Positions 9,826 through 55,646 of a DNA stretch of 64,000 nucleotides are shown piece after piece. Under the pieces are notes generated by a model that had not been told where the DNA came from, searched no databases, and worked only from the letters and a program-made list of their open reading frames with translations. The position numbers and the translations under genes were made by a program. The stretch is from an uncultured Bacteroidales bacterium (GTDB lineage Bacteria > Bacteroidota > Bacteroidia > Bacteroidales > F082), in assembly GCA_900317055.1 (NCBI GenBank), contig ONFF01000009.1:124001-188000 (forward strand). Direction: 5' to 3'. Within the stretch, counting starts at the first letter, position 1. Each line of letters starts with the position of its first letter.

Positions 9826-10095
9826 ATGAAAACAAGAAAAGGTTACACCTTAAGGTCTTTGGGCAAAGAGTTCATTCTCGTTGCCGATGGTTTTGAAGCG
9901 GTCGACTTTAGCCGCATGATTTCGTTGAACGAAACTGCTGCGTTCCTATGGAAGGAAGTGGAAGACAAGGATTTTGATGCCGATATGTTGACCACACTTT
10001 TGACTGACAATTATGACATCGACCGCGAAACGGCCCAAAACGATGTGACTGCAATGTTGAAGTCGTGGGCTGAAGCGGGTATCATAGAGGATTGA
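9826..10095 (+). CDS. PqqD-family peptide-binding protein
   Basis: An 89-residue PqqD-like RRE (RiPP recognition element) protein. Typical features are LRSLGKEFILVADG near the N terminus, the conserved LNETAAFLWKEVE helix, and a C-terminal helix in which the acidic DITRETA-type motif reads DIDRETAQNDV. PqqD-type domains bind precursor-peptide leaders and present them to modifying enzymes. It starts 9 bases after the peptidase gene and is followed closely by the nucleotidyltransferase. No radical SAM or cyclase gene is nearby, so its client enzyme would be the kinase or the nucleotidyltransferase. Confidence 0.85.
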   Translation: MKTRKGYTLRSLGKEFILVADGFEAVDFSRMISLNETAAFLWKEVEDKDFDADMLTTLLTDNYDIDRETAQNDVTAMLKSWAEAGIIED

Positions 10096-46007: not shown

Positions 46008-49000
46008 ATGGACTATAACTTTACCGAAATCGAGAAGAAGTGGCAGCAATACTGGCACGACAACAAAATCTATAAGGTTGATATTGACCATAATAAGCCG
46101 AAATTTTATGTCCTTGACATGTTCCCGTATCCTTCGGGCGCAGGCTTGCACGTGGGACATCCGTTGGGCTATATCGCCTCGGATATTTATGCAAGATATA
46201 AAAGGCTGAAAGGCTTCAACGTGCTGCATCCGATGGGCTACGATGCTTATGGTCTGCCCGCCGAGCAATATGCCATTCAGACGGGCACACATCCCGCTGT
46301 GACAACTGAGAAGAACATCAACCGCTATCGCGAGCAGATGGACAAGATCGGTTTCTGCTACGACTGGGACCGCGAGGTGCGCACCTGCGAGCCAGGCTAC
46401 TACAAGTGGACGCAATGGACTTTCCTCCAACTGTTCAACTCGTTCTACTGCAACGGTTGCCAGAAGGCCCAGCCTATTAGCAAGTTGATTGCCCGCTTCG
46501 AGGAAAAAGGTACAGAAGGCCTCAATGTGGCCGAGAGCAAACCACTGAGCTTCACCGCCGATGAGTGGAAGGCCATGAGTGAGAAGCAACAACAAGAGGT
46601 GTTGATGAACTACCGTCTTGCCTATCAAGCCGAGGCCATGGTGAACTGGTGCCCGGGATTGGGTACAGTGCTCGCCAACGATGAGGTGGCCGACGGCCTC
46701 TCGGTGCGTGGCGGCTTCCCCGTGGAGCGCAAGTCGATGAAACAGTGGCAACTCCGTATCACCGCCTACGCCGACCGTCTGCTCCAAGGTCTCGAGACCG
46801 TGGATTGGAGCGAGTCAGTGAAGGACCTGCAGCGCAACTGGATTGGCAAGTCTATGGGTGCTTCCGTTATTTTCAAGGTGGACGGTAAAGATATCGATTT
46901 AGAGGTGTTTACGACGCGTGCGGATACTTTATTTGGTACCACATTCATGGTGCTGGCCCCTGAGCATGAACTGGTGAGCGAAATCACTACGCCCGAGCAG
47001 CGCGCCGAGGTAGAGGAATACATCACCCGCACCAAGAACCGCAGCGAGCGCGAGCGTATGGCTGAGGTGCGTAAAGTGAGCGGCGCTTTCACGGGTGCCT
47101 ACGGCATCAACCCGATCACGGGTGCTAAGTTGCCCATTTGGATTGCCGACTATGTGCTGATGGGCTACGGTACAGGAGCCATCATGGCTGTGCCTGCCCA
47201 CGACAGCCGCGACTTCGCCTTCGCCCGACATTTCAACCTGCCCATTATCCAAGTGGTGAAGAAACCCGGCACCGAGCCGACAGATCCCGCTACATGGGAG
47301 GAGAGCTTCGACGCCAAGGACGGCGAGCTGGTCAACTCGGGCTTCCTCAACGGCCTGACCGTCAAGAAAGCCATCGAGCGCATGATTGAGGAACTGGAGA
47401 AACTGGGCGTCGGCACAGGCAAGACCAACTACCGCCTGCGCGATGCCATCTTTAGCCGTCAGCGTTATTGGGGTGAGCCTTTCCCGATTTACTACAAGGA
47501 TGGCATGCCTTACGCTATGGATGAGTCGAAACTGCCGCTTGAGTTGCCTGCCATCAGTGAATATAAGCCCACCGAAACGGGTGAGCCGCCTTTGGCTCGC
47601 GCCAAGAATTGGGTTACCGAGGAAGGCTATCCCATCGAGACCAACACCATGCCGGGCTTTGCCGGTTCGAGTGGCTACTATTTCCGCTACGAAGACCCGC
47701 ACAACGACAAGGAATACTTCAGCCGCGAAGCCAACGATTATTGGCAAAATGTCGACCTTTATATTGGTGGTGCTGAGCACGCTACCGGCCACCTGATTTA
47801 CAGCAGATTCTGGTGTAAGTTCCTCTATGACATTGGTTTGTCATGCAAGGATGAACCTTTCCAGAGGATGATCAACCAAGGTATGATTCAAGGCCGTTCC
47901 AGCTTCGCCTATCGTGTCAATTTGGAGAAGCTCTGCGAATACGATGTTTGGAACATCATCAAGGACAAGCGTTTGGGTGTGGAATTCATCAAGGGTTACA
48001 AGGATGGTCGTCGTCAGTTTGACTTCTTCTGTCCTGAGAAAGGCATTCTTATTGAGATCAACCGTATGGGCAACCTTGAGAAGGTGGCTGAACCCTGGGA
48101 GGACTATGCGGCATCGAAGGGCTACAAACTTCTTTTGGTGCCCAACATCGATGTTTTGAATGATTATAGGGCTGGAACCCATATCGTTGAACAGAAAATC
48201 AAGGATTTGATTGCGGGTAAGATAGTTCCGGCTTTCATTGAAGGTGAAGAGTACAATCGTGGTCCTATTTTCGTGTCCAAAAACATACCTGACCGTGAGT
48301 TGTTCAGCGACCCGATTCACGTCGATATCAATATGGTTCGTAACGACATTCTTGATATTTCGGCATTCCGCCAATGGCGCGATGACCTGAAGGATGCCCA
48401 CTTTATCAAGGAGAAGGATAAGGACGGCAATGAAGTTTACGTTTGCGGCAACGAAGTCGAGAAGATGTCGAAGTCGAAATACAATGTGCAGAACCCTGAC
48501 GACCTTGTAGAGAAATACGGTGCCGACACGCTTCGTCTCTATGAAATGTTCCTCGGTCCCTTGGAGCAGTCGAAGCCTTGGGATACGCAGGGTATCGAAG
48601 GCACGTTCCGTTTTGTGCGCAAGTTCTGGAGGCTGTTCCATAACGAAAACAACGAGTTCAACGTCAGCAATGAGCCTGCCACAGCGCCTGAACTGAAGAG
48701 CCTGCACAAGCTTATCAAGAAGGAAGAGGAGGGCATTGAGAGCATCTCGTTCAATACGGTCGTCTCGGCTTTCATGATTTGCGTCAATGAGCTTGCCGAT
48801 CTCAAGTGCAACAAGCGCGAAATCCTTGAGCCTTTGGCCATTATGATTTCGCCATATGCACCGCATATCGCTGAAGAGCTGTGGCACTTGCTGGGTCATG
48901 AGACCTCGGTGGTGAACGCTGCATTCCCCGTTTATGATGAGAGCAAGACGGTGGAGAACAGCTTTAATTATCCCATCAGCTTCAACGGCAAAATGCGTTT

Positions 49001-49148
49001 CAATATGGAGTTGCCTGTGACGATGAATGCCGACGAGGTGCAAGCTGCTGTGCTTGCCGCCCCCGAAGCCGCCAAGTGGATTGAGGGCAAGCAGATACGC
49101 AAGGTGATTTACGTGCCGAAGAAGATTGTGAATATCGTAGTAGGATAA
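46008..49148 (+). CDS. leuS: Leucyl-tRNA synthetase with a ~113-residue insertion
   Basis: A 1046-residue class I synthetase that charges tRNA-Leu. HVGH (the HIGH motif, residues 48-51) and KMSKS (819-823) are intact, as are the editing domain and the C-terminal tRNA-binding end ([14 protein letters not shown]). Bacteroidota LeuRS proteins are usually around 930-950 residues. The surplus is one block, about residues 638-750 (47919-48257), between GRSSFAYRV and GPIFVSKN. The block contains [19 protein letters not shown] and [12 protein letters not shown], which vaguely resemble a PD-(D/E)XK/DUF559 nuclease core. The frame is open throughout, so the enzyme is probably functional. A degraded second 3' end is at 50466. 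Confidence 0.95.
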
Positions 49149-49155
49149 TCAATTT

Positions 49156-49183
49156 GTAGAGACGTAGCGCGCTACATCTCTAC
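49156..49183. repeat. GTAGAGACGTAGC palindrome, probable leuS terminator
   Basis: GTAGAGA-C-GTAGC / GCTAC-A-TCTCTAC forms a near-perfect hairpin 8 bases after leuS. It is the same family as the stem at 12648-12671 and may terminate transcripts in either direction. Confidence 0.75.
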
Positions 49184-49189
49184 TCAGTT

Positions 49190-50044
49190 TTATTGTTGCG
49201 CTCGATATTCCTTGGGCGACATACCCGCGTTTGTTTTAAAAAAGCGAGTGAATGCAGCCGGGTCGGAAAAGCCAAGCTGTTGGCTGATCTGTTGGATATT
49301 GAGGTCCTTGCTGTGGCGAAGTAGCGACTTGGCTTGGACAATGACATAACCCGAAATCCATTCATTGGCACTAATACCGGTTTGTTTCTTGATGATGCTG
49401 CCGAAGTACTTGGGCGACAAACAAAGAAGATTGGCATAATACTGCACTTCGCGGCTTTCATGGAAATGGTTGACAAAGGTGTTTTTAAAACGGTTAACCA
49501 ATTGTTGGGCTGGGGTGAGTTCTGGCGCCGTTATGCCGTTTTCATGTAGGTAAATTTCCATCAAATGCGTCCCTATTTCCATTTGCTTGACCAATAATTC
49601 GTCACGCTCAGGGTGGCTCAACTGACTGATGGCTTGGAGCATCATGAAATGCCCTTGCATGCCATCGTATTGTTCGTCGCTCAGATGAAAAACGGAATTG
49701 TATCGATATTCGACATGCTCAAAATAGAAGGGATAGAGATGCTTCAGGTTCTGGAGAAAACTTGGTGAGATGATGAGCAATGAAACCAAATAATCGTCGC
49801 TCGACTCTTGGATCTCCATCACATGACCAGGAGGAACCATGACAAAGTCGTGTTGATGGAATTCCTTTTGTTGCTTGTCAAAAAGGTTTTTCAGACACCC
49901 CCGGTGATTTAGCCAAAGTACGAAAAATGGTGATGCGTAGGCTTTCTCGTAAATAGACACTCGGTTTATGTTGTCTAATATCATTAGACCATGTGTTTTT
50001 ATCTGGTCTCTTATTTCCTCTAAAGCGTGTGGCTGTTTATTCAT
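49190..50044 (-). CDS. AraC-family transcriptional regulator
   Basis: A 284-residue regulator: an N-terminal cupin-like sensing domain (about 1-150, with FVMVPPGHVMEI), a helical linker, and a C-terminal pair of helix-turn-helix motifs (YANLLCLSPKYFGSIIKKQTG; IQQISQQLGFSDPAAFTRFF ending MSPKEYRAQQ). Effector and target are unknown. A minus-strand TATTTTTG at 50066-50073 is the likely -7 box. It sits alone in the first of two tandem leuS-fucosidase intervals. Confidence 0.88.
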   Translation of the reverse strand: MNKQPHALEEIRDQIKTHGLMILDNINRVSIYEKAYASPFFVLWLNHRGCLKNLFDKQQKEFHQHDFVMVPPGHVMEIQESSDDYLVSLLIISPSFLQNLKHLYPFYFEHVEYRYNSVFHLSDEQYDGMQGHFMMLQAISQLSHPERDELLVKQMEIGTHLMEIYLHENGITAPELTPAQQLVNRFKNTFVNHFHESREVQYYANLLCLSPKYFGSIIKKQTGISANEWISGYVIVQAKSLLRHSKDLNIQQISQQLGFSDPAAFTRFFKTNAGMSPKEYRAQQ

Positions 50045-50331
50045 TTTTTTCGGTCGTTTTGCCTACAAAAATAGGTTTTATTGTGCAAATAATCCACAAT
50101 AAACCGACTAAATGACAATTATTCCGTACGGATTGTTATTTGATGAATGTTGAAATGTATCTAATTTTGGAACCGAAAAATGAAGCAAGACGGCACCATC
50201 GTCACTGTTTTTGTTATGCTGGTTTTTTTTAATTGTTTGGCGACATTATTGTATTAGTCAGCATGTGTTTCAAACATCTTATGTTTATATTATTAGCTTT
50301 TATTTTATCAAAGTGTCTGATGGTGCCTTTT

Positions 50332-50460
50332 TTATTTTTTCTGCATCTCAAACACAACCGCATGAGGCATCTCGAACGAGTTCGGAAAGTCGATGCGGTA
50401 CCGACCATCAGCCTCCTTGCAAAGGGAGGCTTTCTTTTGGCAGCCTAACATATTGATTTT
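50332..50460 (-). pseudogene. 3' end of a second alpha-L-fucosidase gene
   Basis: Read on the minus strand, these bases encode the last ~42 residues of a GH29 fucosidase with its own stop: KKASLCKEADGRYRIDFPN followed by an ending HAVVFEMQKK. The intact gene at 53069-54475 ends KKASLCKEADGRYRIDFPN ... HAVVFEMKK. The DNA differs at many positions, so this is not a recent copy. It is cut off at 50460 and joins the leuS remnant within 6 bases. Confidence 0.88.
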
Positions 50461-50465
50461 ATCTC

Positions 50466-50582
50466 GATGAGGTGCAAGCCGTAGTACTCGCCGTTCCTGA
50501 AGCCGCCAAGTGGCTTGAGGGCAAACAGGTACACAAGGTGATATATGTGCCTAAGAAGATTGTTAATGTGGTTGAGAAATAG
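50466..50582 (+). pseudogene. 3' end of a second leuS gene
   Basis: 39 codons including a TAG stop encode DEVQAVVLAVPEAAKWLEG and then [19 protein letters not shown]. The intact leuS ends [38 protein letters not shown]. By hand count 25 of 117 bases differ (79% identity), mostly at synonymous sites. The remnant therefore comes from a diverged but functional leuS, not from decay of the present gene. Confidence 0.9.
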
Positions 50583-50748
50583 TCCTTGAGTTCGTTTGTG
50601 ATTCAAAGCAAACCCAGATTGTTTTCTTGGTTTTATTCAAAAGACAGAGAATCTATTCTGAGTATTTTACTCAACATCCCATACTTTCACAATTGCAGTA
50701 TCATTTTGTTATGCTGTTGGTGGTGCATTTGTTTTTGCCCAAATGTTG

Positions 50749-51861
50749 TTATATGAATATCCTATTTGCCATTGTTTTTTTGCTTAAAGCTGATATCAAA
50801 ACATTGCGTGGAGGACAAACCGAGGCTAATACTATGTCTTGAAAGCAAGGTTGAAGGTTGTTGCTATTGTTTGCTCTTATAGGACCAGAATATAGAACGG
50901 ATTTGTCTAAAGATACTGTTTTGTTTGGCTTAGCATGCTTATAATTGTCCCCGTATGAGAAAGCAAGGATATTCACCTCATTTGTGTGTTCTGCGATGAA
51001 CTTGTGTAAATCAAGTGCAGTGCTGGAAGAGATGTAATCGGCGAGCAGGTCTTGTAAAACCCATATTGTTTTGCCACCCCAAGCCATAGCTGCTTGTGAT
51101 TTTACAATCAATTGGCTGGCCATTCTTGCCCAAACCTGTCGGTAATTAATTCCTGGTGCTAAATGTGGCTTTCCTAACATACAATCTTCAAACGCTTGTG
51201 GGATGCAACTTCGTTTTTTCTTGTTTCCTCCAGAAGTGCTAGAAGTCATAACTTCAACGATTACAGGATTCCCAATGGGGAAATCTTCAATATAAATGTC
51301 TTCGTTACGCATGGCGAAAGTGTGTCCACTATCACGTAAATACTTTTCCAGAACATTCCATTCCAAGCCAGAATCCAAAACCGCTTGTGCTTTAGTTACT
51401 TTCCCCAAAGGCATTAACACATAGTCAAATGTATAGTCAAAAGCCGACGTGTCATCATCTTCATTGTCGTTGATATACTTTACTTTGGATTCTGCCCAAA
51501 TGCCAATTTCTGTACCTCTTTGGAAACCACATTTTTCTAAAAGCTTTGTTTGGGTTTCTCCTTTCAAAGTATTTTCATTCGCTTTTCTCCCCATATACAA
51601 TAAACGGCGAGGACAAATAATCCAAGGAGGGGTATCATCAGAGATTTGAATAGAACAAACGCCCGAAGACACTCTGTCCATATTTGGGAATAATTTCTTC
51701 AGTTCGTCGTGGTTGTTTAAATCTATTTCTGACATGAAACGATTTCCACCGCCGTCACATCTGTCAGAAATAAACGGGCAATAAGCTTTTTTTCTTGATT
51801 TGATTACTTCGGGGCTTATGTCATTTATTGGGTATCCAAGCAATTCGTAGATTTTTGGCAT
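50749..51861 (-). CDS. NotI-family type II restriction endonuclease
   Basis: A 370-residue protein that matches NotI in its N-terminal half: AYCPF, RVSSGVCSIQ and WIICPRRLL carry C28, C35, C69 and C83, matching the four cysteines that hold iron in NotI. The PD-(D/E)XK core can be followed as FDYVL (Asp146) and IVEVMTSS (Glu203). NotI has ExQ there, while this protein has E-x-M. It should cut a GC-rich palindrome, but the exact site cannot be read from sequence. It overlaps the upstream methyltransferase gene by 37 bases. The composition is AT-richer than that of the flanking genes. Confidence 0.78.
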   Translation of the reverse strand: MPKIYELLGYPINDISPEVIKSRKKAYCPFISDRCDGGGNRFMSEIDLNNHDELKKLFPNMDRVSSGVCSIQISDDTPPWIICPRRLLYMGRKANENTLKGETQTKLLEKCGFQRGTEIGIWAESKVKYINDNEDDDTSAFDYTFDYVLMPLGKVTKAQAVLDSGLEWNVLEKYLRDSGHTFAMRNEDIYIEDFPIGNPVIVEVMTSSTSGGNKKKRSCIPQAFEDCMLGKPHLAPGINYRQVWARMASQLIVKSQAAMAWGGKTIWVLQDLLADYISSSTALDLHKFIAEHTNEVNILAFSYGDNYKHAKPNKTVSLDKSVLYSGPIRANNSNNLQPCFQDIVLASVCPPRNVLISALSKKTMANRIFI

Positions 51862-52964
51862 AAGATGGTCTCCTTTATTTTTATGGCCACGGCCTTGGCA
51901 AGAGGAGGAGGTACTGAGTTTCCAACTTGTCGATGCTGGTCTAGATTTTTTATAGTTCCTGACCTACCGCGAATTGGGCCTCTTAATACATAACTATCAG
52001 GGTAGCCATGTATTCTCATATATTCTCGTGGCGTTAAATACCTGTCTTCAATTGGATGAAAAAATATTTCTCCACCTCGCAAGGTGTTTGAAGGTCGATT
52101 GCGATCCAAACGCAAAAACTTGGTTGTGTCTTTTTGTGTCAAACCACCGATTTGTTCTTTGGGAAGATGGGTTTGAGAAGATAAGTTTTTCCCTTCAGGC
52201 ACTCCGTGTATACGTTCTTTGTCACGGCGAGGAGTCACATCATAATGGCTGTTATCAGGGACAATGTCAGTCTCGGTTTTTAGTATTGGTTTTCCGAGTC
52301 CTTTGATTACTTCGCCGACAGTTACGTATGGAGGTAGGTCAAACAAACTCATAGTTTCAGAAGGTTGGGAATGAGTTGGATTGGGAAATTGGAAACCGTT
52401 AGGCTTTTTCGTTGCTACAATGAAAACTCTCTCTCTCAATTGTGCGACACCATAATCAGCAGCCAGCATGACACGCCATTTTGGAATATACCCCAATTCT
52501 TCAAGACTTTTTATAAATTGCTTAAAAACACCTCCGCTTTTTCCATTTAGGTCTTTTGCATTAAGGAGCCCTTTCACTTGTTCTATCATCAAGGCTCTTG
52601 GTTGTATGGCTTTTGCATACCTAATCATTTGAAATAACAGCACACCGCGTTCGTCAAGCATTGATTTTTGTTTTCCAATTTGAGAAAATGCCTGACACGG
52701 AGGACCTCCAAAAAGCAAATCCACTTCTCCCGATTTAAATCCTAGATCATCAAGTATTTTTTGAGGAGAAATCTCTTTTATGTCTCCTTCATAAACAATA
52801 GTTTTTCTTTCTTCTCTAGATATGTTTTCTCGCAAAGTCTCACAGCAGTGTTTGTCAAGTTCGACACATGAGAGGATATCAAATCCCGCCTGTAGAACTC
52901 CGATGTCCATGCCTCCAGCTCCTGAAAACAAGGAAAGTGCCGTTAACCGATTATGCGTTATCAT
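51825..52964 (-). CDS. DNA (cytosine-5)-methyltransferase
   Basis: A 379-residue C5-methyltransferase with all main motifs: SAM-binding FSGAGGMD (residues 13-20), catalytic GGPPCQAFSQIG (Cys90), MIEQVKGL, QLRERVFIVA, a target-recognition region of about residues 200-320, and RQVGNSVPP near the end. It protects DNA against the adjoining NotI-family endonuclease. ATG 52964 is chosen: it follows a -7 box (minus TACCTTTG, 52994-53001), and an upstream TTG adds nothing conserved. Translation into the endonuclease gene is coupled by overlap, so methylation comes first. Confidence 0.92.
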   Translation of the reverse strand: MITHNRLTALSLFSGAGGMDIGVLQAGFDILSCVELDKHCCETLRENISREERKTIVYEGDIKEISPQKILDDLGFKSGEVDLLFGGPPCQAFSQIGKQKSMLDERGVLLFQMIRYAKAIQPRALMIEQVKGLLNAKDLNGKSGGVFKQFIKSLEELGYIPKWRVMLAADYGVAQLRERVFIVATKKPNGFQFPNPTHSQPSETMSLFDLPPYVTVGEVIKGLGKPILKTETDIVPDNSHYDVTPRRDKERIHGVPEGKNLSSQTHLPKEQIGGLTQKDTTKFLRLDRNRPSNTLRGGEIFFHPIEDRYLTPREYMRIHGYPDSYVLRGPIRGRSGTIKNLDQHRQVGNSVPPPLAKAVAIKIKETILCQKSTNCLDTQ

Positions 52965-53068
52965 GATTTGTTTTTCACGGTTTTTCAATGCAGCAAAGGT
53001 AGTAAAAAATCTTAATCTTTAATACTGAATTCTAAAAAGCCAAAAAATGTTTTTTTTGAATTCTGGTA

Positions 53069-54475
53069 TTATTTCTTCATCTCAAACACTACAGCGTGCT
53101 GCATGTCGAAATGATTCGGGAAATCAATGCGGTAACGACCGTCAGCTTCCTTGCAAAGGGAGGCTTTTTTTGTGCTGCCTAATACTTTGATTTTTCCCGT
53201 CTTCAGCTTTATGTCTTTGGCCTCAAACCAATAAGTGTCGGGAACAGGGTTTTCCTGTTCGTCCAAGAGGAAAATACCATAGACTTTGTCGTCTTTCTGC
53301 GTGAAACAAAACTTGCCGTAAGTAAAAGGATAAATTGGGCGTGTGCCGTAGATAGCTTCGCCGTTCACCTGCATCCACTTACCGATTTCTTTCATGCGAA
53401 GCAAGGCGGTGTCGGGCAGGTTGCCGTCGGCATCAGGCCCTACATTGAGGAGGAAATTGCCGCCCTTGGCCACGATGTCGCACAAAAGATGGATGAGTTT
53501 GTTGGTGCTTTTGTAAGTGTCGGTGGAGACATACGACCACGAGTTGCCCATCGACATGCAAGTTTCCCAAGGATAGGGCAGGAGCGAGTCGGGCACCTGC
53601 TGCTCGGGAGTCTGGTAGTTCTCGTATTTGCCGCCTACCGAACGGTCGACGATGATGAGGTCGGGGTTGTTTTCGCGGGCAATTTCGGCTACTTTGGGCA
53701 TGTCAATGTCCTGGATGTAGCCTTGGCATCCGAGCCAGGGACGCGTTTCGTCGTTCACGCTCCATTCGGGGCGCACCCAGCCACCATCGAGCCACAGGAT
53801 GTCGATGTCGCCGTAGTTGTGGGTAAGCTCGCGGATCTGTCTGTGAGTAAATTGCTTGTATTTCTCAAAACGCTCGGGCATAGTAGTCGGGTCGTAGTTG
53901 ACATTGCGGTCGGGGGTGGCCCATTCATGTGCCCAATAGTCATCGCAGTGCCAGTCGGGTTTCGAAAAATAGAGACCAGTCCAAAAGCCTTTTTCGCGGA
54001 AGGCTTTCACCACTTCGCCCGTGATGTCAGCTTTGGGATTTTTCGAGAACGGGCAGCTTGGGTCGACAGTGGAGTAGGTGGTCTCCTTCGTGTCGAACAT
54101 GCAGAAGCCGTCGTGGTGCTTCGTGGTGAAGACAACATACTTCATGCCCGCGTTTTTGGCGGCCTCGGCCCATTTTGAAGGATCGAAATGTTGCGGGTTG
54201 AAGGTTTTGTTAAGATTTTGGTAATCAGTCTTATATTGGTAATAATCGGCGCCATTGCGGTTGATCCAAGGCTCGTTGCAGATGGACCATGACTCCACCA
54301 CTTCCCATTGGGCGTAGATGCCCCAATGCATCATGAATCCAAATTTCAGGTCCTGCCATTGGCTGATGCGGTTGGTGATGACAGGGTCGGTTTCGGGAAG
54401 TTGGTCGGTTTGGGCAAAAGTGGTTGCGTAGAAAATGCTTATTAATAATAAGAGGAGTGATACTTTTTTCTTCAT
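53069..54475 (-). CDS. Alpha-L-fucosidase, glycoside hydrolase family 29
   Basis: A 468-residue exported enzyme (signal ending TTFAQ) that removes alpha-L-fucose from host or plant glycans. The GH29 landmarks are FGFMMHWGIYAQ near the start, TKHHDGFCMF, and the nucleophile Asp230 in DIDILWLDGGW. A short C-terminal beta domain follows. There is no T9SS or lipoprotein signal, so it is likely periplasmic. A minus-strand TATCTTTG at 54497-54504 lies 20 bases before the start. The 3' end is duplicated as a remnant at 50332. Confidence 0.93.
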   Translation of the reverse strand: MKKKVSLLLLLISIFYATTFAQTDQLPETDPVITNRISQWQDLKFGFMMHWGIYAQWEVVESWSICNEPWINRNGADYYQYKTDYQNLNKTFNPQHFDPSKWAEAAKNAGMKYVVFTTKHHDGFCMFDTKETTYSTVDPSCPFSKNPKADITGEVVKAFREKGFWTGLYFSKPDWHCDDYWAHEWATPDRNVNYDPTTMPERFEKYKQFTHRQIRELTHNYGDIDILWLDGGWVRPEWSVNDETRPWLGCQGYIQDIDMPKVAEIARENNPDLIIVDRSVGGKYENYQTPEQQVPDSLLPYPWETCMSMGNSWSYVSTDTYKSTNKLIHLLCDIVAKGGNFLLNVGPDADGNLPDTALLRMKEIGKWMQVNGEAIYGTRPIYPFTYGKFCFTQKDDKVYGIFLLDEQENPVPDTYWFEAKDIKLKTGKIKVLGSTKKASLCKEADGRYRIDFPNHFDMQHAVVFEMKK

Positions 54476-54571: not shown

Positions 54572-54772
54572 TTATTCCTGTTCCATCAGGGCTTTGACTT
54601 CCTTGGCTTTCACGGTGTAGATGTTACCATCGGCATCGCAGAAGCAGAAGGTGCCATTGTGGCGGCAGCGCATGGTGAGCAAGCGTTGCATGGAGAGGTC
54701 GAGGCCACTCATCAGCTTCTTGGTGAAGGAGGATACTTCATTCTTCTTGGCATTCACTGTTACTGTTGTCAT
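54572..54772 (-). CDS. 66-residue partner of the zeta-toxin-like protein
   Basis: A small basic protein starting MTTVTVNAKKNEVSSFTKKL and ending VKAKEVKALMEQE, not recognised by family. It overlaps the end of the zeta-toxin-like gene by 35 bases in another frame, so the two are translationally coupled. It could be an antitoxin, but zeta-type antitoxins (epsilon) are usually encoded before the toxin and are helical bundles; this one has a predicted strand pair (GTFCFCDADGNIYTV). Confidence 0.6.
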   Translation of the reverse strand: MTTVTVNAKKNEVSSFTKKLMSGLDLSMQRLLTMRCRHNGTFCFCDADGNIYTVKAKEVKALMEQE

Positions 54773-55364
54773 ATTGTCTGATTTTTTTGAATTTTTCTTC
54801 GTTGTAAAACTTGATGGATTTGATGTTTCCTTCGGCGATGATTTCGGAGGGCATGATGCTGTTGTCGATGAACAAGAAATAGTCAACGACGGGGCAATAA
54901 AGATGGAATAGGTTCTTGATGCCCGCTTTGTAACGCCTGCGGATAATGTTGTCGTCCACATGATGACCGCCATGCTTCACTCGCTCAGCCACGCGCTTGA
55001 TGGCCAGTTCGGGACTTTGCAGCCAGAAATAAACGAGGCTGGCTTTGTAGCCCTGTTCGCGTGCCTTGAGGATGAGGGAGTGATAGGATTTGGCAGCCAA
55101 GGTGGTTTCGATGGCAAAATCAACTTTGTCAGCGATGTGTTTTTTGATGCATGTCAACATCAGGCGACCTGCGGCGACCTTGGCACCGTCGGGGTTGAGC
55201 GGTGACAGACCCTTGGCGATTTCGTCGCAGTTGACGAACTCCTTGCACTGCAGCGTCTCAGGCAAAACAGTCAAGGAGGCTGTGGTCTTTCCAGCTCCAT
55301 TACAACCTGATATGATATATAAATTAGGCATCAAATAATAATTCTGCTCGTTTTGTGATGACAT
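54738..55364 (-). CDS. Zeta-toxin-family P-loop kinase
   Basis: A 208-residue protein. Walker A GCNGAGKTT (residues 20-28) is followed by VNCDEIAKGL, where the Asp matches the catalytic base of zeta toxins, then FAIETTLAAKSY and a lid region with RVAERVKHGGHHV. Zeta toxins phosphorylate UDP-N-acetylglucosamine; many chromosomal relatives have other or unknown substrates. Met12 (55331) may be the true start because the P-loop fold begins there. A minus-strand TATCTTTG is at 55386-55393. Confidence 0.82.
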   Translation of the reverse strand: MSSQNEQNYYLMPNLYIISGCNGAGKTTASLTVLPETLQCKEFVNCDEIAKGLSPLNPDGAKVAAGRLMLTCIKKHIADKVDFAIETTLAAKSYHSLILKAREQGYKASLVYFWLQSPELAIKRVAERVKHGGHHVDDNIIRRRYKAGIKNLFHLYCPVVDYFLFIDNSIMPSEIIAEGNIKSIKFYNEEKFKKIRQYDNSNSECQEE

Positions 55365-55490: not shown

Positions 55491-55646
55491 TATGTCATTC
55501 CAGCTTAGCCTCCCATGTCATTCCTACGGAGGTGTGTGCGTTGGCTAGGAATCTATGGGAGGCGGTTCAAAGCAGTTAACCTAATGGGCCGGCTTCAGAA
55601 AGCATAGATTCCATGCTTTCACACAGCCCAGCGCAGGAATGACATA
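55491..55646. repeat. Composite palindromic repeat (TATGTCATTCC type)
   Basis: Outer arms TATGTCATTCC (55491-55501) and GGAATGACATA (55636-55646) enclose a second pair CCTCCCAT (55509-55516) / ATGGGAGG (55555-55562) and a small hairpin GAAAGCAT / ATGCTTTC (~55598-55620). It fills most of the 391-base gap between the zeta-toxin-like gene and the next lipoprotein; I see no gene in it. Confidence 0.8.

Follow-up and report, generated by a model that had tools for sequence, protein, structure and literature searches.

The stretch of DNA analysed here, referred to as the window, comprises 64,000 nucleotides from an uncultured Bacteroidales bacterium (GenBank assembly GCA_900317055.1, contig ONFF01000009.1, positions 124,001 to 188,000). 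Within it, leuS and a convergently oriented fucosidase gene enclose both an araC-family regulator gene and a predicted type II restriction-modification (R-M) pair, and between these two sets lie a second fucosidase 3' end and a second leuS 3' end (Table 1). The order of parts is leuS, araC, fucosidase end, leuS end, R-M pair and complete fucosidase gene. A repeat search and a check of the stop codons confirmed this arrangement, which had first been made out in a reading of the sequence alone: the two remnants keep stop codons of their own and meet at 50460-50466. In what follows, genomes of relatives are labelled G, stretches fetched from them L and contigs C (L080 belongs to G129, L079 to G132, L002 to G016, L058 to contig C1 of G054, L096 to G110 and L078 to contig C34 of G120), and coordinates are window positions unless labelled.

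Table 1. Features of the leuS-fucosidase locus, in window coordinates
Feature	Position	Strand	Observation
leuS, complete, 1046 aa	46008..49148	+	last 149 bp 93-95% identical to G129/G132
Hairpin directly 3' of the leuS stop, 14-bp arms, 13/14 paired	49156..49183		similar sequence in some intervals of relatives
araC-family regulator, native interval cargo	49190..50044	-	PF12833/PF00165; DNA 95% identical to L080/G129, 94% to L002/G016
Native spacer between araC and fucosidase	50045..50331		88-91% identical to L080, L079, L002
Fucosidase 3' remnant, native part with stop codon	50332..50438	-	2/104 positions (50335-50438) mismatch all of L080/L079/L002
Fucosidase remnant, divergent part by the joint, probably donor	50439..50464	-	7/26 positions mismatch all three natives
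Fucosidase/leuS joint	50461..50466		fucosidase homology stops, leuS homology starts
leuS 3' remnant with own stop codon, unsampled lineage	50465..50582	+	closest leuS genes found in the genus 84-86% identical
Putative restriction endonuclease of the R-M pair, 370 aa	50749..51861	-	weak PADLOC match to REase_II, E=1.1e-4
C5 cytosine DNA methyltransferase	51825..52988	-	PF00145, E=8.6e-65; TIGR00675
3' end of complete fucosidase gene, donor-like	53069..53147	-	12/79 positions mismatch four natives; first 90 bp at most 83% identical to 47 relatives
Probable crossover region in fucosidase	53148..53172		contains 20-bp identical run 53148-53167, shared with 50414-50433
Remainder of complete fucosidase gene (53069-54475), native-like	53173..54475	-	PF01120

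Two pairs of repeats define the tandem. The fucosidase repeat pairs 50333-50460 with 53067-53194 (128 nt, 80% identity), and the leuS repeat pairs 49031-49138 with 50465-50572 (108 nt, 82%). The in-frame stop of the fucosidase piece is a TTA (reverse strand) at 50332-50334, one codon beyond that of the complete gene, while the leuS piece ends in a TAG at 50580-50582. As the single 128-bp fucosidase end of G129 aligns to both window copies, the duplication is far from a chance resemblance. Over 36 codons, the leuS piece differs from the window's own leuS by 11 synonymous and 6 non-synonymous changes; the earlier hand count of 79% identity was somewhat low, and its description of the changes as mainly synonymous roughly right. 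The six non-synonymous changes could in part reflect decay after insertion.

Native and donor-like parts of the locus

In the three nearest relatives, G129, G132 and G016, araC stands next to a single fucosidase end and the R-M insert is absent, with leuS also on the contig in G129 and G132. Compared with 50045-50460, the fucosidase end of these genomes is 91% identical and the spacer is as conserved as given in Table 1. Because the nearest relatives show the order araC, spacer and fucosidase without R-M genes, the left fucosidase piece is the end of the native gene. The native-like part of the complete fucosidase gene is 90-93% identical to the same three genomes over most of the gene and 96-97% identical to G132 and G016 over its first 100 bp; identity to G132 within the fucosidase is 88-94% against 97-99% just upstream, and other stretches of the window dip too. 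A different araC allele (65% protein identity) occupies the same place in G132 between similar flanks, which suggests that interval contents have been replaced between close relatives.

Among the 43 relatives compared, none is more than 84% identical to the leuS piece, whose best genus-wide DNA match is 86%, and pairwise identities among the leuS ends of these relatives have a median of 87% and reach 97%. In the complete fucosidase gene, the low identity of the initial 90 bp, which at least seven relatives equal or undercut, gives way to values of up to 95% over the next 100 bp. Judged by sequence comparison, the R-M segment came with the leuS and fucosidase ends of another lineage, and the relatives bear out the initial proposal of two tandem versions of one interval, the second from another lineage and joined inside both flanking genes. 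When the DNA around the joint was compared with 99 genomes of the genus, the matches besides the window were ordinary leuS ends at 75-86% identity and two short matches (30 and 24 bases); the window joint was found in no other of the genomes searched.

The interval as a hotspot of gene exchange

The fucosidase was found in 83 of the 99 genus genomes (E<=1e-100) and the leuS end in 89 (E<=1e-5), and 60 stretches were fetched from relatives to compare the interval. The two genes converge on one contig in 42 of these and lie in tandem on one strand in eight, from a more distant group; the remaining ten stretches lack one or both. Thirteen of the 42 contiguous convergent loci are empty, with at most 48 bp between the two genes, and the other 29 hold 0.3-12 kb, mostly of cargo genes. 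An araC gene is present in 11 of the 42 (alone in ten, with an AAA ATPase in one); the other 18 comprise two intervals without a recognised gene (315 and 690 bp) and 16 with different cargo of 1.2-12 kb. Pfam families in the 20 of 64 cargo open reading frames (ORFs) that were scanned include AAA and ABC-type ATPases, an EamA transporter, a mechanosensitive channel, peptidases and hydrolases, and some of these ORFs have no match. No integrase or transposase family was found by Pfam in these 20 ORFs or in the araC and R-M proteins of the window; some of the other 44 ORFs are homologous to scanned ones. Sequence like the hairpin that follows leuS recurs in some empty and araC-type intervals of relatives (matches in L037, L043, L080 and L039).

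Conserved core flanks around variable cargo, as in hotspots free of mobile elements, are thus seen across the 42 contiguous loci. Because so many interchangeable intervals lie between homologous flanks in these relatives, the region that separates the convergent leuS and fucosidase genes is a hotspot of gene exchange in the genus. The other side of the fucosidase served as a control: a zeta-toxin-like kinase gene, found in 25 loci, lies 162-342 bp away in 23 of them and about 2.2 kb away in the remaining two (G033 and G054), and it is absent from 14 of the 42 loci despite at least 1500 bases of sequence, three loci being too short. This side varies too, but less in length. In the window, the zeta-toxin-like kinase gene (54738-55364, PF06414) neighbours the fucosidase gene, and an inverted repeat (55515-55645, 43-nt arms, 74% complementary) lies between it and the next gene.

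The R-M pair and its other copies

The methyltransferase is clearly identified and its partner weakly recognised (Table 1), and together they are predicted to form a type II R-M system. Sequence searches of Pfam, NCBIfam and PDB gave no match for the putative restriction enzyme, and its structure model is poor, with a mean predicted local distance difference test (pLDDT) score of 44.9. It is 73-88% identical to seven homologues in Bacteroidales and Clostridia records and adjoins the methyltransferase in six of seven other loci, no such partner being found in L073; more distant copies occur in records named Prevotella, Muribaculaceae, Bacteroidales, Neglectibacter and Clostridia. The stretch 50465-53068 contains two sizeable ORFs, both belonging to the R-M pair, and no transposase gene such as an insertion sequence or composite transposon would have; the accompanying check for terminal repeats covered lengths from 25 nt upward.

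Within the genus, this enzyme was found in two of the 99 genomes, its own included. The second is G120, where the pair lies at another locus (L078:9502-11714) and is 86% identical in DNA to that of the window; no long repeat was found flanking this copy. The genes on either side of it have matches 2 bp apart in G018 and G021 and about 4 kb apart in G000 and G002. A search of 393 genomes of the order returned the window's own copy alone, and searches of plasmids, phages and viral contigs returned none. Six R-M loci from a wider contig search show no leuS or fucosidase of this kind in up to 8 kb per side. Of the two forms of the interval implied by the sequence-only reading, leuS-araC-fucosidase was recovered among relatives and leuS-R-M-fucosidase was not.

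Opposed breakpoints in the two fucosidase copies

We located changes in the density of positions that mismatch all of G129, G132 and G016. In the left piece, the density rises at 50439 (permutation p 0.001; counts in Table 1). In the right copy it falls at 53127, from 13 in 58 positions to 9 in 182 (permutation p 0.006), and with G028 added as a reference this change moves to 53148 (12 in 79, then 2 in 161). Placed on common coordinates, the two switches, at 53148 and 53173, face each other, with the longest identical run of the two copies between them. Opposed switches around 53148-53172 therefore fit one reciprocal crossover of a molecule that already held the fucosidase/leuS joint. The breakpoint pattern may be taken as moderate evidence for a pre-formed joint, and the joint probably existed before integration.

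A mirror-image case without R-M genes

Abutting fucosidase and leuS 3' remnants occur in one of the 29 non-empty contiguous intervals of relatives, that of G054 (L058), in which 48 bp of fucosidase with its stop (9786-9833 of L058) are followed by 24 bp of leuS with its stop (9834-9857), 10 bp, and then fucosidase similarity again. Left of this joint, the sequence is 99-100% identical to G119 over about 740 bp and 77-93% identical further left; G119 has a single, clean interval of the leuS-ABC ATPase-fucosidase type. Right of the joint, about 300 bp resemble G110, in which the interval is nearly empty. The background of G054 is like G033, whose interval is empty (leuS 93-100%, fucosidase from about 0.7 kb inward 94-99%), and the stretch between reaches at most 84-91% identity to anything compared. 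The cargo is an ABC-type ATPase with no R-M genes, both parental versions exist among relatives, and the two parental sequences share a short imperfect match (ATNGTT) at the joint. G054 thus mirrors the window, in that its recipient side carries the leuS end, and not the fucosidase end, as the short repeated piece.

A caveat attaches to this case. In G054 and G110 (L058 and L096) the fucosidase frame runs into the opposite-strand leuS end, so that the convergent genes overlap. For most of its length, the 24-bp leuS remnant thus also codes for fucosidase, and that part would be carried along by a fucosidase like that of G110. G056 was considered as a third case and not counted, since its two interval versions (L104 on C8 and L045 on C103) lie on contigs that both stop inside the gene ends and may represent a tandem or two mixed strains.

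A proposed route to the tandem

We favour a reading in which an ancestor of this genome would have carried the leuS-araC-fucosidase version and would have received, from another lineage, a segment consisting of a leuS 3' end, the R-M pair and a fucosidase 3' end. The two ends of this segment would have become linked, the fucosidase piece with the leuS piece, and the closed, circular intermediate so formed would have integrated by one homologous crossover in the last ~130 bp of the fucosidase gene, most likely in the 20-bp run at 53148-53167. Both versions would then stand in tandem with both flanking genes intact, the R-M pair having been added and not swapped in; addition in tandem would follow from a joint between the flanks plus one crossover, whereas replacement needs two crossovers. 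The comparisons show which parts are native and which foreign, that the nearest relatives lack the insert and that G054 bears a similar scar; we infer the closed intermediate, the ligation of its ends and the involvement of RecA. Ligation into a circle followed by single-crossover integration falls short of proof, and we judge its chances to be about even. Genes of the DprA and ComEC families are present in the genome, but they are widespread, 11 and 10 of 14 control genomes, respectively, also carrying them, and so do not demonstrate competence.

Several observations weigh against this reading. No circle was seen, and no genome with a leuS-R-M-fucosidase donor was found. Change points as strong as those described above occur in 2 of 47 ordinary relatives over 130 bp and in 8 of 47 over 240 bp; across the genus the fucosidase 3' end has a mosaic make-up, and the nominal p values of 0.001 and 0.006 overstate the case. 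With G132 or G129 as the single reference the signal weakens, most of all in the right copy, with G132 alone the left change falls at 50428, and with all 47 relatives as reference the switch signal vanishes. Moreover, the divergent stretch beside the joint is just 26 bp. The earlier proposal of a circular intermediate inserted by homology is still the best fit to the breakpoints, the control having reduced the strength of that fit to moderate evidence.

Because G054 has a tandem of this kind without R-M genes, R-M is not necessary as a driver, and the tandem is an occasional by-product of the hotspot. The earlier idea that recombination between the repeats could swap araC for the R-M pair fared poorly: with repeats 80-82% identical and longest exact runs of 20 and 15 bp, such a swap, or the loss of one version, is unlikely given the length that recombination requires. 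A broader scheme seems improbable to us: convergent core-gene intervals would routinely circulate between species as small integrase-free circles, made up of cargo and short ends of both flanking genes, and would enter by a single crossover in either flank, with the window and G054 as two frozen steps. The overlap of fucosidase and leuS in G054 slightly lowers the odds of this scheme and leaves those of the other explanations as they were.

Alternative explanations

The most serious alternative has the tandem arise in the donor lineage, a linear piece with a ready-made joint and the R-M pair then being integrated by two crossovers, both in the fucosidase repeats. This would also account for the two-sided switch in the window, and neither side of the G054 joint belongs to that genome's G033-like background, as if the joint had come in with an imported segment. 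The two crossovers must, however, fall in the same 25 bp, and the failure of the window joint to recur in the 99 genus genomes searched tells against a ready-made one; we consider this route unlikely. Homology-facilitated illegitimate recombination (HFIR), in which a linear donor fragment would recombine homologously in the fucosidase at one end while its other end is joined illegitimately to fucosidase sequence of the recipient, perhaps across sister chromosomes, seems to us rather doubtful. The joint is non-homologous, as HFIR would have it; an HFIR joint would carry 3-10 bp of microhomology, and G054 offers the ATNGTT-like imperfect match. HFIR and inter-chromatid duplication are described processes (PMC3240628, PMC3784515). 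According to PMC3240628, HFIR usually deletes recipient DNA of similar size, a loss that is general but not invariable, whereas here araC, the spacer and the fucosidase are kept and 128 bp are duplicated; it also predicts a wholly native remnant, and 50439-50464 is divergent.

The remaining explanations are much weaker. The sequence-only reading had equated the locus with the R-M-driven insertion with long target duplication reported for Helicobacter pylori (Nobusato et al. 2000, as cited in PMC1643837, PMC4978471 and PMC3031569), and the likeness is apparent, the R-M pair being flanked by 128-bp direct repeats and the target occurring once in relatives. Compared with that case as it is summarised there, however, the repeats are alleles of two lineages, 80% alike, the right copy foreign at 53069-53147 and the left native; the insert includes the gene end of the opposite flank; G054 shows a similar scar in mirror image without R-M; and the G120 copy sits elsewhere with no long flanking repeat found. 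We regard an insertion of this type as very improbable. An assembly chimera at 50460-50466 might be suspected in a draft genome of 32 contigs, but both flanks match the same close relatives, the complete fucosidase gene is itself recombinant and an analogous joint lies within a 258-kb contig of G054, which leaves an artefact highly implausible. Tandem duplication in place, followed by conversion of one copy by foreign R-M DNA, would give the same order of parts; it needs two separate events, and duplication alone was seen in none of the 29 non-empty contiguous intervals, making it the least credible of all.

Relation to known systems

Oliveira et al. (2017, PMC5635113) described gene-turnover hotspots that lack mobile elements and whose contents are exchanged by homologous recombination in the core genes on either side, an exchange inferred there from statistics on flanking genes. 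The present interval resembles those hotspots, so far as that account describes them, in its conserved flanks (leuS and fucosidase) and many alternative cargos, and may also resemble them in its mosaic flanks and in the lack of an integrase family, none having been found among the scanned cargo proteins; in contrast to the replacement of the interval proposed there, a second version has here been added in tandem with gene-end scars. In Escherichia coli, linear DNA was ligated and integrated by a single crossover, and the 14 clones that were sequenced had duplications of 109-950 bp (PMC3240628). End-joined linear DNA, one crossover and a leftover duplication are the features that our favoured reading would share with those clones, although that account concerns laboratory conjugation plasmids and ours a natural genome. 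The merodiploids that Streptococcus pneumoniae forms by transformation (PMC3784515) are likewise tandem duplications triggered by incoming DNA; those described there span ~100-900 kb at repeats between chromatids, whereas the present case involves a few kb and a non-homologous joint. Judged by titles and abstract openings, none of the papers listed in the literature searches described this locus, a negative that extends no further than those papers.

The finding is real and explained in outline, and it represents a variant of processes already known, not a novel kind of system. Its value lies in the readable scars and in a second case free of R-M genes: the leftover gene ends expose an individual event, with its native parts, incoming parts, joint and probable crossover position, and they suggest how insertion with long target duplication could come about independently of restriction enzymes. 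At this variable spot, the tandem is a rare footprint of bacterial gene swapping, in which the second version brings a predicted DNA-defence system.

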